The notes under the pieces are model-generated. The model had not been told where the DNA came from. It searched no databases and saw only the letters and a list, made by a program, of their open reading frames with translations. The translations under genes and the position numbers were made by a program. DNA of 45,501 bases from Synechococcus sp. HJ21-Hayes (lineage in GTDB: Bacteria; Cyanobacteriota; Cyanobacteriia; PCC-6307; Cyanobiaceae): NCBI RefSeq assembly GCF_024345835.1, contig NZ_JAGQBW010000022.1, positions 1-45,501 of the forward strand. The letters run 5' to 3'. Of the stretch, positions 5,733 through 11,916 are shown piece after piece. Each line of letters opens with the position of its first letter. The stretch's first letter is position 1.

Positions 5733-7285
5733 CAGGGCCGCGCTTGCACCAGCATCCATTCGCCCAGATCATCGCCCGATGCCAACGGCTGCAAGGCCGC
5801 GCCCTCGGCACTCGTCCCAAGGCGTTTGGGCACCCAGGCCCGCTGGCCCGGTGCCAGCGCGTTCAGTCCATCCAGGCGAGGGCCCAGCTGGGGCGTGCCC
5901 AGGGCCAGCAGGATCAACTGGGCGTGTCCATCACCACTGAGGGGATCCGGCACAACAACCGCTACAGGGCCCTGCTGCAGGGCCTGGCTGAGGGCTGGTG
6001 CCGCCAGGGCTTGGCGCATCTGGGGGCTGCGATCGGTGAACAGGCCTGTTTGCACCAGCAGCAGCAGGGCTAACCACGGTCCTGCCAGGCAGGCGATCAG
6101 CACGGAGCGGTCCTCGCGCTGCCAGGGCAGGGCCAGCCAGCTGACTCCCAGCCCCAGGGCCGCCAGCCCATAGGGCCAGGGGGCTTGCCATAGCCCAATC
6201 ACGCCCGCCACGGCCAGGAGGGCTCCAAAGGCGGCGATCAGCCAGGCCAGCCAGCGTGGCCGCGCCTGATCCGCTTGGCTGAACCGCTGCAGGGCCGCCG
6301 CCGCGGCAATGGCCAGAAAGGGGGTGATCTGCAGGCCGTAGTAGGGCGTTTTGGTGCGGAAGCAGCTCAACAGCACCACCAGCAACAGGGGAGTGCCAAG
6401 CAAGGCCAGCCGCTGCTCCTGGCCCCAGTGGCGCAGGCCCAGCCACCAGCCGGCGGCGGCCGCCAGGCACCAGGGGGCCGTGTTGGCGGGGATGTTCCAG
6501 AGGTAATAGAGGGGGCCGGCGCTGTAAACGTCGCTTTTGGAGAGGTAGAGCAGCTTCTGCAGCAGGCCCCCCACCACGGCCGGGCCGTACTGCTGCAGGC
6601 TCAGGCCCAGCCACAGCAGCACCGGCACCCAGCCCAGCAGTAGCCAGCCCCAGAAGCTGGGCCGCGCCAGCAGCCAGCGGCGGCGCAGCAGGGTGAAGGG
6701 CGCCATCGCGGCCAGGGGCACCGCCACCATGAAGCCCTTGATCAGGAAGGCTGGGCCCACCCAGCTGGCGGCGAGGGCCATGGGCCACCAAGGCCCGTCG
6801 GGCCGGGCCCGCACCAGGGCCCAGAAGCCAAGGAGTTCCAGGGCCAGCAGCGGCATGTCCTGGCCGGCCTGGTGGGCGTGATTGATCCACAGCGGTGTGA
6901 GGGCCAGCACCAGGGCACTGATCCAGCCGGTTCCCCGGCCCAGCAGCTCCCGGGCCAGGGATGCGGTGAGCACGAGGCAGGCGGCGGCGGCCAGCAGGCT
7001 GGGTAGATGGGCCACCCAGGGCTCGGGCCCCAGGAGTTGGCGGGCCGCGGCGATCAACCACTGCAGGCCAACTGTGCGGTCGTAAAGGGGGTCCCCCCAC
7101 CAGAGGGGGGCTAACCACTGGCCGCTCTCCTGAATCCAGCGGCCCTGCAGGGCGTAGTAGCCCTCGTCGTGGGCGAGAAAGCTGCGGGGGGCTGCCGTGA
7201 GCAGCAGAGGTAGAAAGGCCAGGGCTGCCAGGAGGCGCCACCACCGGCCCATCCCCTCGGCCACGTGTCCGGGGCTACGTGTCAT
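5732..7285 (-). CDS. GT39 family (ArnT-like) membrane glycosyltransferase
   Basis: 517 residues from ATG at 7285; a GTG at 7300 is an alternative start. The first luminal loop has FLAHDEGYYALQGRWI, the DEGYYA signature of ArnT/PMT-type glycosyltransferases, followed by WLAPLWWGDPLYDRTVGLQWL. About eleven hydrophobic helices follow, then a short soluble tail. Such enzymes use undecaprenyl-phosphate sugars to glycosylate lipid A or other surface acceptors; the actual acceptor cannot be read from the sequence. It is the first gene of the four-gene minus-strand operon and is divergent from porin 1, with under 100 bases between the two start codons, so both promoters must be compact or overlap the coding sequence. 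Confidence 0.83.
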   Translation of the reverse strand: MTRSPGHVAEGMGRWWRLLAALAFLPLLLTAAPRSFLAHDEGYYALQGRWIQESGQWLAPLWWGDPLYDRTVGLQWLIAAARQLLGPEPWVAHLPSLLAAAACLVLTASLARELLGRGTGWISALVLALTPLWINHAHQAGQDMPLLALELLGFWALVRARPDGPWWPMALAASWVGPAFLIKGFMVAVPLAAMAPFTLLRRRWLLARPSFWGWLLLGWVPVLLWLGLSLQQYGPAVVGGLLQKLLYLSKSDVYSAGPLYYLWNIPANTAPWCLAAAAGWWLGLRHWGQEQRLALLGTPLLLVVLLSCFRTKTPYYGLQITPFLAIAAAAALQRFSQADQARPRWLAWLIAAFGALLAVAGVIGLWQAPWPYGLAALGLGVSWLALPWQREDRSVLIACLAGPWLALLLLVQTGLFTDRSPQMRQALAAPALSQALQQGPVAVVVPDPLSGDGHAQLILLALGTPQLGPRLDGLNALAPGQRAWVPKRLGTSAEGAALQPLASGDDLGEWMLVQARP

Positions 7286-7370
7286 TGCGGTTTGTGGCAC
7301 ACCGGGGCTGGGGGGCAGGTGGATCCTGCGTCATCTTCTCCTCAGACGCTCTGCGTCGAAATCCTCTTTT

Positions 7371-7382
7371 GGTGTGAGGACC
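7371..7382 (+). promoter_or_regulatory. Porin 1 ribosome binding site, predicted Yfr1 target
   Basis: GGTGTGAGGACC directly precedes the ATG. GTGTGAGGA (7372-7380) is the exact reverse complement of TCCUCACAC, nine of the eleven bases of the ultraconserved single-stranded motif ACUCCUCACAC of the cyanobacterial sRNA Yfr1, which is known to bind porin mRNAs in Prochlorococcus. Binding would mask the Shine-Dalgarno. A TCCTCA at 7339-7344 in the leader could also pair with TGAGGA (7375-7380). It is part of a 29-base block (7369-7397) identical to 9282-9310 at porin 2. Confidence 0.75.
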
Positions 7383-9068
7383 ATGAAACTGTTCCAGAAG
7401 CTTCTTCTGGCGCCTGCTGCCCTGGGCCTGATGGCTCCTGTGGCTGCATCCGCCGCCGACCTGAACATTGCTGGCGTCAGCCAGTACGGCTCCGAGGAGC
7501 AGGTGACTTCGATCACCCAGTTCTCCGACGTGCAGCCCACCGACTGGGCGTATCAGGCTCTGAGCAACCTGATCGAGCGCTACGGCTGCGTTGCGGGCTA
7601 CCCCAACGGCACCTACAAGGGCAAGCAGGCCATGACCCGCTATGAAGCGGCCGCCCTGCTGAACGCCTGTCTCGACCGGATCACTGAAGTGACCGACGAG
7701 CTCAAGCGCCTCATGAAGGAGTTCGAAAAGGAACTCGCCGTGCTGAAGGGCCGCGTGGATGGCCTCGAGGCCAAAGTGGCCGAACTGGAAGCCACTCAGT
7801 TCTCCACCACCACCAAGCTGAAAGGTATCGCCACCTTCGTTCTGGGCGCTAACAGCTTCGGTGGCACCGCCAACACCGCTCGCAACGGCGGCACCACCGG
7901 TAACCAGTACACGGCTGCTAACACGGCTGCGCTTGAAGGTGCTACCACCTTCAACTACGACGTTCGCCTGAACTTCGACACCAGCTTCACCGGTAAGGAC
8001 CTGCTGCGCACCACCCTGCGCGCTGGTAACTTCGCCGATTCCGCGTTCACCGGCGGTACCAACCAGCTGGAAATCGCCTTCCAGGAAGGCTGCGGCACCG
8101 GCGTTGACTGTGGCGACGTCGTCGCCATCAACCGCCTCTTCTACCAGTTCCCCCTGGGCCAGAAGTTCACCGCCACCGTGGGTGGCAAGGTGCGTATCGA
8201 CGACATGCTGGCCATGTGGCCCAGCGTGTATCCCGCTGACACCGTTCTCGACACCTTCACCTACGCCGGTGCTCAAGGTGCCTACAACCTGAACGCCCTG
8301 GGTGGTGGTGCTGGCCTCTGGTACAAGGACGGTGGCTTCAGCTTCAGCAGCAACTACGTGGCTGTGAACTCTGACGCGGCTAACTCGAATCCCGCTGCCT
8401 GCATCAACAACGGCACCACCCTTTGCGGTGGTGTTGGCACCGCGGCCAGCCAGTCGGCTTGGGTGAACCAACTCGCCTACTCCGGCAGCAACGCTGGTAT
8501 CGCTGTGGCTTACACCTATGGCCGCGGCCTGGGTCTGCCCAACGCCACTCCTCTGGCTCTGTCCCAAAGCAGCGCAACCGCTGCCTCCAACTCCGTTGGT
8601 GTGAGCGGTTACTGGCAGCCCTCCAAGAGCAGCATCATCCCCTCCTTTAGCGCTGGCTGGGGTATCACCGGTTATACCAACCGCCTCTACACCCAACCCA
8701 ACCGCTCTGCTGGTTTCAGCAACGGCCGTCAGGCTCAGGCGCAGTCCTGGATGGTGGGCATGCAGTGGAGCGATGTGTTCCTCAAGGGCAACTCCGCAGG
8801 TATGGCTGTGGGCCAAGTTCCCTTCGTTACCAGCAGTGGTGTCGGTGGCGTGACTCCCCAAGACCAGAACTACGCCTGGGAGTGGTGGTACAAGTTCCAG
8901 GTCACCGACAACATCAGCGTGACCCCCGCTCTGTACTACATCTCCAACTCCAACGGTCAGCTGGGTAAAGGCGGTCTGGCGGCGGTCGGCGGTACCAACA
9001 CTGCCAACTACGCCACCAACTCTGTCAACAACTTCGGCGGCATCCTCAAGACCACCTTCAAGTTCTGA
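7383..9068 (+). CDS. SLH-domain OprB-type outer membrane porin (Som family), copy 1
   Basis: 561 residues; the start was chosen at ATG 7383 because it follows GTGAGGACC and opens a signal peptide (MKLFQKLLLAPAALGL..ASA, about 24 residues). Upstream in-frame codons are not part of the gene. Residues about 46-100 are one S-layer homology domain (FSDVQPTDWAYQALSNLIERYG, YPNGTYKG, MTRYEAAALLNACLDRI) that anchors the protein to peptidoglycan-linked polymer. Residues about 101-137 are a coiled coil, and from about 140 to the end there is an OprB-type beta-barrel ending in aromatic KF. Two cysteine pairs lie in predicted loops. These porins are the dominant outer-membrane channels of cyanobacteria for small solutes and possibly iron. 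The paralogue follows in tandem. Confidence 0.95.
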   Translation: MKLFQKLLLAPAALGLMAPVAASAADLNIAGVSQYGSEEQVTSITQFSDVQPTDWAYQALSNLIERYGCVAGYPNGTYKGKQAMTRYEAAALLNACLDRITEVTDELKRLMKEFEKELAVLKGRVDGLEAKVAELEATQFSTTTKLKGIATFVLGANSFGGTANTARNGGTTGNQYTAANTAALEGATTFNYDVRLNFDTSFTGKDLLRTTLRAGNFADSAFTGGTNQLEIAFQEGCGTGVDCGDVVAINRLFYQFPLGQKFTATVGGKVRIDDMLAMWPSVYPADTVLDTFTYAGAQGAYNLNALGGGAGLWYKDGGFSFSSNYVAVNSDAANSNPAACINNGTTLCGGVGTAASQSAWVNQLAYSGSNAGIAVAYTYGRGLGLPNATPLALSQSSATAASNSVGVSGYWQPSKSSIIPSFSAGWGITGYTNRLYTQPNRSAGFSNGRQAQAQSWMVGMQWSDVFLKGNSAGMAVGQVPFVTSSGVGGVTPQDQNYAWEWWYKFQVTDNISVTPALYYISNSNGQLGKGGLAAVGGTNTANYATNSVNNFGGILKTTFKF

Positions 9069-9110
9069 TCCTCGGCAGAACGGGAGCCTTCCTCACACAT
9101 TCGGGCTCCC
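9062..9110 (+). ncRNA. Porin 1 3' UTR: stop-codon hairpin and hairpin with Yfr1-like seed loop
   Basis: Two adjacent hairpins. GTTCTG (9062-9067) spans most of the stop codon and pairs with CAGAAC (9076-9081). GGGAGCC (9082-9088) pairs perfectly with GGCTCCC (9104-9110) and leaves a 15-base loop that holds TCCTCACAC (9090-9098). That nonamer is identical to the core of the Yfr1 seed and complementary to GTGTGAGGA at both porin ribosome binding sites. A further TCTCACACA lies at 9118-9126, then a terminator at 9141. Whether a separate RNA is released from this 3' UTR is unknown. Confidence 0.55.
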
Positions 9111-9140
9111 AACCACTTCTCACACAGCAACATCTCACCA

Positions 9141-9168
9141 AAGCCCCGGAATACTCCGGGGCTTTTTT
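9141..9168 (+). terminator. Rho-independent terminator of porin 1
   Basis: AAGCCCCGGA and CTCCGGGGCTT form a strong stem around a short ATA-containing loop, followed by a run of T to 9168. It lies 72 bases after the stop codon, so porin 2 is expected to have its own promoter in 9169-9283. Confidence 0.9.
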
Positions 9169-9257
9169 ATGGCCTGCCGATGGATGTATCCCAGCGCACG
9201 GCTGGTTGTGCTGGTGGTGCGGCGGCCAGGCTGCAGGCTGCCGTAACTTGGCGCCAA

Positions 9258-9276
9258 CTCCCTTAATTGGGAGCTC
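9258..9276 (+). promoter_or_regulatory. Inverted repeat upstream of porin 2
   Basis: CTCCC (9258-9262), TTAATT, GGGAG (9269-9273), followed by an overlapping GAGCTC palindrome (9271-9276). It lies 20-38 bases before the porin 2 ATG, in the only AT-containing part of the inter-porin gap, so it is either a leader hairpin or an operator near the promoter. TTAATT could be part of a -10 region. No convincing -35 was found. Confidence 0.4.
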
Positions 9277-9283
9277 CTCGATT

Positions 9284-9295
9284 GGTGTGAGGACC
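9284..9295 (+). promoter_or_regulatory. Porin 2 ribosome binding site, predicted Yfr1 target
   Basis: GGTGTGAGGACC just before the ATG is identical to the porin 1 site. The 29-base identity (9282-9310 versus 7369-7397) stops right after the fifth codon, while the rest of the two leaders differs. This points to selection on the RNA sequence around the start rather than recent gene conversion of the leader. Confidence 0.75.
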
Positions 9296-11077
9296 ATGAA
9301 ACTGTTCCAGCAACTGCTGCTGGCCCCCGCTGCCCTGGGCCTTCTCGCGCCTGTGGCTGCTTCGGCCTATGAGATTTCTGCCGCTCCCAGCGGCATGAAC
9401 GACTACATCCAACAGGGCGACCTGCACAACTTCCGCGTTTGGGCGGATCAGAACCAGGTCACCAGCGTCAGCCAGTTCGCCGACGTGCAGCCCACCGACT
9501 GGGCTTACCAGGCTCTGAGCAACCTAGTGGAGAAGTACGGCTGCGTGGCCGGCTATCCCAACGGCACCTTCAAGGGCAAGCAGGCCATGACCCGCTATGA
9601 AGCGGCGGCTCTGCTCAATGCCTGCCTTGATCGCGTGACGGAGATCACCGACGAGCTGCAGCGCCTGCAGAAGGAATTCGCTAATGAATTGGCTGTTCTG
9701 AAGGGTCGTGTGGATGGCCTCGAGGCCAAAGTGGGCGAACTGGAAGCGACCCAGTTCTCCACCACCACCAAGCTGCAGGGTGACACCTACTGGTCCATCG
9801 GTGCGCCTGTGTACGGTGGCAAGAACAACAACCTGACTAACGGCACCCAGCGTAATAGCAGCCTCTTCGGTGCAACCACGTTTAACTACGACCTGCGCCT
9901 GAACCTGAACACCAGCTTCACAGGCAAGGATCTGCTCTATACCCGTTTGCGTTCGGGTAACTACGGCAACAGCGCCTTCAATGGCCAGCCTTACAGCTTG
10001 ATGACGCTGGATCGTGCATTCGGTGGTAACGCCGGCAATGCCAACAACCTGAATAACGTCTTCCAGCTTGATCGTCTTTACTACCGCTTCCCGGTTGGTA
10101 AGGAGTTCACCGCGATCGCAGGCCCCCGCGCTCGTAACACCGAGTTCCTGGCGATCAGCCCCTCCTATTACGGCGACTTCCAGGGTCTGGACTTCTTCAC
10201 CCTGCATGGCGCTCCCGGCACCTACAACAAGGCCACCGGCGGCATGGCTGGCTTGATGTGGAAGCAGTCTGTGAAGAAGGGCAAGCCTTTCTTCGCGGTG
10301 TCCACCAGCTATGTGGCCCCGAATGCCGACAACTCCAACACTGGAACCGGCGCCGCAGGATCTCCGACCCAAGGCGGCATTTTCAGCAACAACAGTGGTG
10401 GCAGCTGGACCACTCAGTTGGGTTATCAGGCCCAGCAGTGGAAGGCCACCTTCGGCTGGCGTTATGGCCAGTGCGGTCAGTCTGTGAACCGCCGCGGTAC
10501 TCAGGCAGCCGTTCAAGCTGAGACCTGTGGCACCACGGCCACTGGCACCACCTCCACCGCTTGGTCTAGCACCAACACCAACAACAACTTCGCGCTTGGC
10601 CTGGCCTGGCAGCCTAAGAAGGGCGGCACTGTCATTCCTGCGATCAGCGGTGGCTGGGGGTATAGCGCCTACTCCTACACCAACCAGAGCGCTCCGGCTG
10701 TGAGCACGTCCAACACCGGTGTGAGTTCCGCTGGCATCAGCAATGCTCTTGCTCCTACCAATATCGCTGCAACCCAGTCTTGGAGTGTGGGCCTGCAGTG
10801 GAAGGATGCTTTCGTGAAGGGCAATTCGGCCGGTATGGCCGTGGGTCAGCCCTCCTTCGTGACCAGCACCCGCAACGGCGTGACCCCGTTCGATGGCAAC
10901 TACGCCTGGGAGTGGTGGTACAAGTTCCAGGTGAGCGACAACATCTCCCTGACCCCGATGCTCTTCTATTTGAGCAACCCCAGCAGCGCTGGTGCTAATG
11001 GCGGCACTACTGCTGCTCCGATCAACACCAACGCCAACGTGTTCGGTGGGATCCTCGCCGCTCAGTTCAAGTTCTGA
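9296..11077 (+). CDS. SLH-domain OprB-type outer membrane porin (Som family), copy 2
   Basis: 593 residues from ATG 9296. The signal peptide (MKLFQQLLLAPAALGLLAPVAASA) is almost the same as in copy 1. After it comes a 30-residue insert absent from copy 1 (YEISAAPSGMNDYIQQGDLHNF..), then the SLH domain (about residues 61-115), a coiled coil and an OprB barrel ending in QFKF. The conserved barrel block KGNSAGMAVGQ..FVTS..GVTP..NYAWEWWYKFQV is shared with copy 1, whereas the middle strands and loops are strongly diverged and rich in Asn, Thr, Ser and Gly. The two barrels probably differ in pore selectivity or in surface epitopes seen by phage. It has its own terminator at 11140. Confidence 0.95.
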   Translation: MKLFQQLLLAPAALGLLAPVAASAYEISAAPSGMNDYIQQGDLHNFRVWADQNQVTSVSQFADVQPTDWAYQALSNLVEKYGCVAGYPNGTFKGKQAMTRYEAAALLNACLDRVTEITDELQRLQKEFANELAVLKGRVDGLEAKVGELEATQFSTTTKLQGDTYWSIGAPVYGGKNNNLTNGTQRNSSLFGATTFNYDLRLNLNTSFTGKDLLYTRLRSGNYGNSAFNGQPYSLMTLDRAFGGNAGNANNLNNVFQLDRLYYRFPVGKEFTAIAGPRARNTEFLAISPSYYGDFQGLDFFTLHGAPGTYNKATGGMAGLMWKQSVKKGKPFFAVSTSYVAPNADNSNTGTGAAGSPTQGGIFSNNSGGSWTTQLGYQAQQWKATFGWRYGQCGQSVNRRGTQAAVQAETCGTTATGTTSTAWSSTNTNNNFALGLAWQPKKGGTVIPAISGGWGYSAYSYTNQSAPAVSTSNTGVSSAGISNALAPTNIAATQSWSVGLQWKDAFVKGNSAGMAVGQPSFVTSTRNGVTPFDGNYAWEWWYKFQVSDNISLTPMLFYLSNPSSAGANGGTTAAPINTNANVFGGILAAQFKF

Positions 11078-11127
11078 TTCTTCAGAACCGCACCACTCCT
11101 CACGCGCTCCTCGCGCTCACTCACACA
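11071..11127 (+). ncRNA. Porin 2 3' UTR: stop-codon hairpin and Yfr1-like CU-rich segment
   Basis: GTTCTGA (11071-11077, including the stop) pairs perfectly with TCAGAAC (11082-11088) across a TTCT loop, the counterpart of the hairpin in porin 1. ACTCCTCACGC follows at 11095-11105 and differs from the Yfr1 motif ACUCCUCACAC at one base. It can pair with GTGTGAGGA through nine contiguous pairs, one of them G-U. A small GCGC/GCGC stem (11104-11107 with 11113-11116) and CTCACTCACACACC (about 11116-11129) lie before the terminator. Confidence 0.5.
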
Positions 11128-11139
11128 CCAGAACAACAG

Positions 11140-11164
11140 GCCTCCCGGAAACGGGGGGCTTTTT
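11140..11164 (+). terminator. Rho-independent terminator of porin 2
   Basis: GCCTCCCG (11140-11147) pairs with CGGGGGGC (11152-11159), with one G-U pair, around a GAAA tetraloop and is followed by five T. Confidence 0.9.
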
Positions 11165-11229
11165 CATGGCTGTGCGTGCGGGCGCGTCTTGGATGATGGG
11201 GTGGCTTCCGTTGTGGCGAGCCCCTCGCG

Positions 11230-11916
11230 ATGTCCCTGCCCCCCACTGATCCCTATCAGGTGTTGGGGGTGCCCATCACGGCCAAGGCAGCCGAGATCAA
11301 GGCGGCCTACCGGGCGCTGGTGAAGCAGCATCACCCGGATGCGGGCGGTGATGAGCATCGGATCCTGGAGCTCAATGCCGCCTGGGAGGTGCTGGGGGAT
11401 GCGCAGCGCCGGGCTGATCACGATCGCCGCCATCCCGCGAGCGTTGCCGCCGGGCCTGGGCATGCCGTGGAGGTGGGCCGGGCCGCGCGGCGGGCCACGG
11501 CGCAGGCTTCTGCCGTGGATGCCCAGCTGCAAACCTGGCTCCAGCAGGTGTATGGGCCCATCGATCGGCTGCTGGGCCAAGTGATCAATCCCTTCGCTGG
11601 GCAGCTCAGGGATCTCTCTGCCGATCCCTACGACGACCAGCTGATGGAAACGTTCTGCCAGTTCCTGGAACAGAGCCAGGCCAAGCTGCTCAAGGTGGAC
11701 ACGCTCTATCGCTCCATGGCGGCGCCGCGATCGGCCCAGGGCTTCAGCCTCAGCCTGTATCACTGCCTCAGCCAGGTGCAGGACGCGCTTACGGAACTCG
11801 AGCGCTACACCATGGGCTACGTGGACAGCTACCTGCGCGATGGGCGCGAGATGCTGCGGGAGGCCAAGCAGCGCCGCTCTCGGCTGCATGAGGAGCGGCG
11901 CCGCCTGGAGATCTGA
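11230..11916 (+). CDS. J-domain (DnaJ-like) protein
   Basis: 228 residues. An N-terminal J domain (about residues 7-68) has the fold residues DPYQVLGV..AEIKAAYRALVKQHHPDAGGDE and the catalytic HPD at 35-37, which stimulates Hsp70/DnaK ATPase. There is no Gly/Phe region, zinc finger or peptide-binding domain of full DnaJ. Instead a helical C-terminal domain of about 150 residues, ending in a charged helix (EAKQRRSRLHEERRRLEI), probably gives target specificity. It starts 65 bases after the porin 2 terminator and ends 15 bases before the convergent ndhO. The client is unknown. Confidence 0.87.
   Translation: MSLPPTDPYQVLGVPITAKAAEIKAAYRALVKQHHPDAGGDEHRILELNAAWEVLGDAQRRADHDRRHPASVAAGPGHAVEVGRAARRATAQASAVDAQLQTWLQQVYGPIDRLLGQVINPFAGQLRDLSADPYDDQLMETFCQFLEQSQAKLLKVDTLYRSMAAPRSAQGFSLSLYHCLSQVQDALTELERYTMGYVDSYLRDGREMLREAKQRRSRLHEERRRLEI

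Follow-up and report, generated by a model that had tools for sequence, protein, structure and literature searches.

A Yfr1-like hairpin in porin 3' UTRs of picocyanobacteria, conserved through compensatory stem change and complementary to porin ribosome binding sites

The window analysed here, a 45,501-nucleotide stretch of a contig of Synechococcus sp. HJ21-Hayes, carries on its forward strand two tandem SLH-OprB porins identified with Pfam, porin 1 (7383-9068; 561 aa; stop codon 9066-9068) and porin 2 (9296-11077; 593 aa). The start of a 16S rRNA gene lies at the contig end (45417-45501). Downstream of the porin 1 stop codon and upstream of its terminator is a forward-strand hairpin (9082-9110), and sequence and fold confirm the 7-bp stem, the 15-base loop and the position between stop codon and terminator that the initial annotation had given it. 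The stem strands GGGAGCC (9082-9088) and GGCTCCC (9104-9110), which form 8 bp when a U-G pair is included, enclose a loop (9089-9103) that displays UCCUCACAC; the element is also supported by a covariance model and by covariation. Within the loop, the nonamer TCCTCACAC (9090-9098, forward strand) has a mean unpaired probability of 0.99 and, together with the two preceding bases, agrees with 9 of the 11 positions of the Yfr1 undecamer. A second copy, linear, of sequence CACTTCTCACAC (9114-9125, forward strand; CACUUCUCACAC), lies between the hairpin and the terminator and is unpaired with a probability of 0.89 over its last nine bases. The message ends in a terminator hairpin with a T run (9140-9168, forward strand), which was recognized from the fold and the T run and is absent from the consensus terminator scan listing. 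The porin 1 3' UTR is predicted to fold into a hairpin, an open linker and a terminator, with a z-score of -5.95, and 0 of 200 shuffled sequences were equally stable.

The 3' UTR of porin 2 is organized around linear copies. Sequence and fold place CACTCCTCAC (11094-11103) and CTCACACACC (11120-11129) on either side of a small hairpin, GCGC-TCCTC-GCGC (11104-11116), followed by a terminator (11138-11164) found by both fold and terminator scan, all on the forward strand; the z-score of this fold is -3.43. A GCGC hairpin between two linear Yfr1-like copies is recurrent in the 3' UTRs of same-genus second tandem porins.

Nearly all cyanobacteria have the small RNA Yfr1, a repressor of porins, which are its classic targets. 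In both porins of the window, the ribosome-binding-site region carries GTGTGAGGA on the forward strand, two bases upstream of ATG, with 9-nt complementarity to the loop nonamer; the sequence and a genome-wide nonamer search place it at porin 1 (7372-7380), where it complements both the loop nonamer and the Yfr1 core, and at porin 2 (9285-9293). This supports the earlier proposal that the 3' UTR holds a Yfr1-like element complementary to the ribosome binding sites of both porins. The two sites are partly paired in the predicted fold, being unpaired with probabilities of 0.55 and 0.31. In the genome as a whole the bare nonamer is unremarkable, with 15 places against 13 for a reversed control. 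On our reading of these 15 nonamer places, GTGTGAGGA stands upstream of a long gene at the two porins only, and at its other places the nearest start, if any, opens frames of 13-122 codons. Moreover, only Yfr1, one Yfr1-like sequence and the porin 1 3' UTR have a terminator-like hairpin downstream of TCCTCACAC, and in RNA-like contexts of this genome the complement of the nonamer is found at the two porin ribosome binding sites and in a Cyano-1 RNA.

The conservation of the element was analysed from porin relatives in same-genus genomes (matches in 37 of 40), whose 3' UTRs on inspection have hairpins with differing stems that display an identical loop word. A covariance model was built from 5 sequences and then widened to 11. 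Over 300 family genomes, it gave 36 matches in 34 genomes and 6 genera, the sixth genus being represented by a single weak match only. All 30 fetched matches, 18 of them from genera outside the training set, are located 12-55 nt past the stop codon of a porin homologue; outside this fetched set are the other 6 (G214 C40, G203 C15, G055 C5, G224 C8 and two of G256), among which the G203 match is likewise a porin 3' UTR (L207). The alignments were fitted to the model structure and their pairing measures therefore lean towards it: with 11 sequences, 94.2% paired against 75.8% when shuffled, with double changes in 6 of 8 pairs, and with 28 distinct rows, 96.8% of the cells pair (72.1% shuffled), 53 cells are changed on both sides (15.6 in shuffles) and the covariation score is 0.704 (0.241 shuffled). 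One of the five measures is unexceptional, as pairs with a change on both sides number 6 against 5.3 in shuffles, a value reached in 235 of 500. The count of stem turnover in pooled 3' UTRs is model-free. In this pooled sample YYTCACAC occurs in 66 of 184 distinct 3' UTRs, and in 38 of the 66 it is enclosed by a stem of 6 bp or more, compared with 9.1% when the motif was kept and the 30 bases on either side were shuffled. The 38 stem-borne UTRs have 32 distinct 5' stem strands around an unchanged loop octamer, so that the free variation of the loop in relatives, named earlier as an outcome that would speak against the element, is not what these genomes display. Judged from these alignments, compensatory changes in the stem have kept the Yfr1-like 3' UTR hairpin in several genera. 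A loop that stays the same while its stems change would also be compatible with a protein site or a message-stability determinant that needs no RNA partner, but the loop word equals the Yfr1 core and finds its complement at the ribosome binding sites of these very genes, which makes this reading highly improbable.

To relate the element to the ribosome binding site, a protein-based sample was taken, for which the search retained the best 80 among 240 relatives, with 74 loci, so that it represents near relatives; it yielded 115 frames, from which 3 cut at an end were left out, with 89 + 23 remaining. The 3' UTR motif is present in 44 of the 89 porins with the GTGTGAGG site and in 0 of the 23 without it, a count in which the first porin of L271 is scored as motif-negative because an early T run cut its UTR, the full UTR having the hairpin, and in which the UTR of L303, one of the 23, is not real because its frame is cut by a stop. 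Rechecking of these 23 detected no GTGTGAGG from 200 nt upstream of the frame through the part searched. The raw Fisher p for the association is 2e-6, which is not independent evidence because the association is not independent of porin phylogeny; when corrected on the porin tree it comes down to 6 independent pairs, too few, and is not significant (median p 0.5). The base following GAGG was also compared: GAGGA sites have the 3' motif in 40 of 75 cases and GAGGT sites in 4 of 14 (Fisher p 0.14). Among usable 3' UTRs of GTGTGAGG-site porins, CCTCACAC is found in 35 of 87, while shuffled sequences gave a mean of 1.33 and a maximum of 5. That the bare nonamer is no commoner in the genome than its reversed control would suit a chance resemblance, or an ordinary terminator-side hairpin, yet the model matches at porin stops, the UTR shuffles, the constant loop and the covariation are all contrary, and because of this comparative evidence the hairpin is not regarded as a chance one; on the sequences compared, chance resemblance is refuted.

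In a sample drawn by ribosome-binding-site pattern, the motif is present in 27 of 86 porins outside the genus, comprising 14 of 25 with a 3' UTR G+C of at least 55% and 13 of 61 below that value, and in same-genus porins it is present in 27 of 36. Where the 3' UTRs are AT-rich, most relatives retain the ribosome-binding-site motif without the element. Named strains that have the hairpin include Cyanobium sp. Morenito 9A2 and Synechococcus sp. BSA11S. In the marine Synechococcus WH7803, the first porin has a 3' UTR without the motif and the second has two copies, and one Cyanobium group has kept no more than the shorter CTCACA. On the porin tree, two clades are apparent, with mostly hairpin copies in the one with porin 1 and mostly linear copies in the one with the second tandem porin. 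In the related strains of L271 (position 6665) and L276 (position 6709), the ribosome binding site is GTGTGAGGTT and the 3' UTR has AACCTCACAC. This lengthening of the match could have arisen as a joint change; it is absent from three neighbours that share the site GTGTGAGGTT.

Two kinds of RNA partner offer a complement to the motif, the porin ribosome binding sites and the Yfr2 family. Yfr1 itself, which in this genome is encoded separately from the porin locus (67.7 bits, RF01116), forms a predicted duplex of -19.0 kcal/mol with the porin ribosome binding sites, and the porin 1 loop reaches -16.3 kcal/mol with the porin 1 site and -17.3 kcal/mol with the porin 2 site. A second Yfr1-like sequence, sub-threshold at 30.4 bits, is found at C12:216967-217024 (+) (L090), with ATTCCTCACACC and then a terminator-like hairpin. 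Cyano-1 (RF01701) is described as a sequence motif of the Yfr2 family (PMC8400943) and shares GUGUGAGGA with the porin site, which makes it a possible partner and no relative of the element. The Cyano-1 RNA of this genome (C35:56610-56679 (-), L099) has, at the start of its match, GTGAGTGTGAGGAGTG, the complement of the Yfr1 undecamer, and its predicted duplexes amount to -20.6 kcal/mol with the loop and to -22.0 and -24.4 kcal/mol with linear copies; for the linear copy at 11094-11103, the values are -24.4 kcal/mol with the Yfr2-family RNA and -16.1 kcal/mol with the porin sites. Across relatives, where the Yfr2 energies come from one consensus core composed by the analyst, which is G-rich and therefore gives a stronger energy with any Yfr1-like word, the Yfr2 duplex is the stronger in 26 of 34 hairpin windows and 46 of 52 linear windows, with means for Yfr2 versus porin site of -19.7 versus -17.0 and -21.5 versus -16.1 kcal/mol, respectively.

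These partners lead to readings of different probability. The one ranked first as the main arm, to which we assign a probability of roughly 0.45, is that the porin 3' UTR element may act as an antisense of the Yfr1/Yfr10 type that lowers porin translation by direct pairing, likely in trans. It is favoured by the model matches at porin stops, the constant loop on compensating stems, the excess of CCTCACAC over shuffled 3' UTRs, the association of motif and site, the open loop and the precedent of OppZ and CarZ. Counting against it are the lack of coevolution beyond the core, the small number of independent pairs (6), the stronger Yfr2 duplex, the AT-rich relatives without the element, the partly paired porin sites and the result of the promoter scan. 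Next in rank, and rather unlikely as the main arm, is that the 3' UTR copies serve as a sponge for Yfr2 by binding the 5'-terminal GUGUGAGGAGUG of the Yfr2-family RNA (Cyano-1), so that abundant porin messages would titrate Yfr2 and the freed Yfr1 would repress porins. The GTGAGTGTGAGGAGTG at the start of the Cyano-1 match and the stronger average Yfr2 duplexes of linear and hairpin windows speak for such a sponge, as does a C two bases upstream of YYTCAC in 36 of the 52 linear copies, which pairs with Yfr2 and not with the usual porin site. It is also in keeping with a reporter experiment in E. coli, in which Yfr1 represses the PMM1121 5' UTR and Yfr2 counteracts Yfr1 (PMC6778093). However, at E <= 0.01 Yfr2 is detected in 35 of 40 relatives, including outgroups, and the element is found only at site-bearing porins; moreover, the energies derive from the one composed consensus and its G-rich core.

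Coevolution of the loop with the ribosome binding site, which the initial annotation had invited one to look for, was not detected beyond the invariant core: own pairs average -15.97 kcal/mol and permuted partners -16.22 kcal/mol, with 484 of 500 permutations as low. Because the core never changes, own pairs do no better than permuted ones, and coevolution cannot name the partner. The same result bears on a closure in cis, in which 3' UTR and ribosome binding site would pair within a single molecule. The nine bases of complementarity that each porin 1 message contains (-16.3 kcal/mol) would permit this, and a precedent exists in icaR, where a 3' UTR motif pairs with the Shine-Dalgarno region of its own mRNA (PMC3868564); with the neighbouring porin fitted equally well by the same sequence and own pairs no better than permuted ones, we consider it distinctly unlikely.

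Known RNAs resemble the porin element in part. A described RNA with the Yfr1 motif in a stem loop is Yfr10 (PMC6778093), and the same source reports the Yfr1 motif in Yfr104 of MIT9313. As in Yfr10 (RF02362), the motif lies in the unpaired loop of a stem with a terminator downstream, and the core CCUCACAC is exact here. In MED4, however, Yfr10 forms a small RNA of its own beside Yfr2 (PMC2518516), whereas the present hairpin follows a porin stop codon, between stop and terminator, with the Yfr2-family RNA on another contig, C35. RF02362 scores 18.3 bits on 9040-9200, below its cut-off of 43, and aligns there to the linear copy; it has no listed match to the porin 2 3' UTR and exceeds the cut-off in 0 of 40 relatives. 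Identity with Yfr10 was therefore rejected, on the score and because the element is not a separate gene beside Yfr2. The one match found with RF02362 across this genome (L326, 33.9 bits) was rejected as the motif is absent. In the same-genus genomes G003, G012, G018 and G020, weak Yfr1-like matches lie ~100-250 nt from Cyano-1 matches, a proximity that resembles the Yfr10-Yfr2 neighbourhood of MED4. With Yfr1 (RF01116), the element has the core in common, and the arrangement of its linear copy recalls Yfr1 in part: ACUUCUCACAC, which agrees with 10 of the 11 positions of ACUCCUCACAC, is unpaired between hairpin and terminator, but the main copy is in the loop. Identity with Yfr1 was rejected as well, since RF01116 (cut-off 38 bits) gave no match at E <= 10 to the porin 3' UTR and the Yfr1 of this genome lies elsewhere.

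Regulatory RNAs at message 3' ends provide further parallels. In Vibrio cholerae, OppZ and CarZ derive from 3' UTRs and repress the message they come from (PMC7398697); like them, the porin element is located at a message 3' end, ends in the terminator of that message and is complementary to it near a translation start (9 bp, -16.3 kcal/mol). For OppZ and CarZ, RNase E processing and repression were measured, whereas for the porin element both are putative, and it carries the seed of a core small RNA that already exists and targets the same genes. As in icaR of Staphylococcus aureus, a motif of the 3' UTR finds its complement in the message's own Shine-Dalgarno region, but the porin motif, for which pairing is predicted, also fits the sister message and Yfr2 and resides in a conserved hairpin loop. 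Cyanobacteria have a 3'-end RNA in ApcZ (PMC9438474). The main texts of the open-licence PMC papers searched describe no Yfr1-like element at the 3' end of a porin message. Relative to these papers, what is new is that the 3' UTRs of a core small RNA's own targets contain its seed, kept by compensatory stem change.

Under the direct-pairing reading, we infer that in the cell the loop copy, aided by the linear copies, would pair with the GUGUGAGGA that the parent and sister porin messages carry at their ribosome binding sites, and would lower the translation of these messages. The acting form would most likely be a terminator-stabilized RNA freed from the 3' end and working in trans, or alternatively the 3' end of the intact porin message. 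A separate RNA from its own promoter was rejected, being unsupported because a scan of 7000-11300 for one promoter type found 0 promoter-like sites, against 0.9 in shuffles. Since the motif is complementary to the 5' end of Yfr2, the element could in addition tie up Yfr2 and so free Yfr1. Direct pairing would lower porin translation and freed Yfr1 would likewise, so both routes should act on porins in the same direction, and pairing with either the porin sites or Yfr2 predicts negative feedback on porins. The net effect may be a negative feedback on porin synthesis and a balance between the tandem porins. Porin messages that carry a Yfr1 seed thus probably take part in regulating porin synthesis, their own included.

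In summary, the porin messages of many picocyanobacterial genera may carry a Yfr1 mimic that both represses porins and sequesters Yfr2 in a three-RNA feedback circuit, a combined proposal that we put forward tentatively and hold less firmly than direct pairing. If true, this circuit would set the porin level and the ratio of the tandem porins, and the function of Yfr1 would have been copied into the 3' ends of its own targets. It is readily testable, given the short loop, the clear complement at known sites and the relatives with and without the element. Yfr1 and Yfr2 would then form a loop with their targets instead of acting solely upstream of them, and an outer-membrane gene family would regulate itself through 3' UTRs conserved by compensatory stem change.
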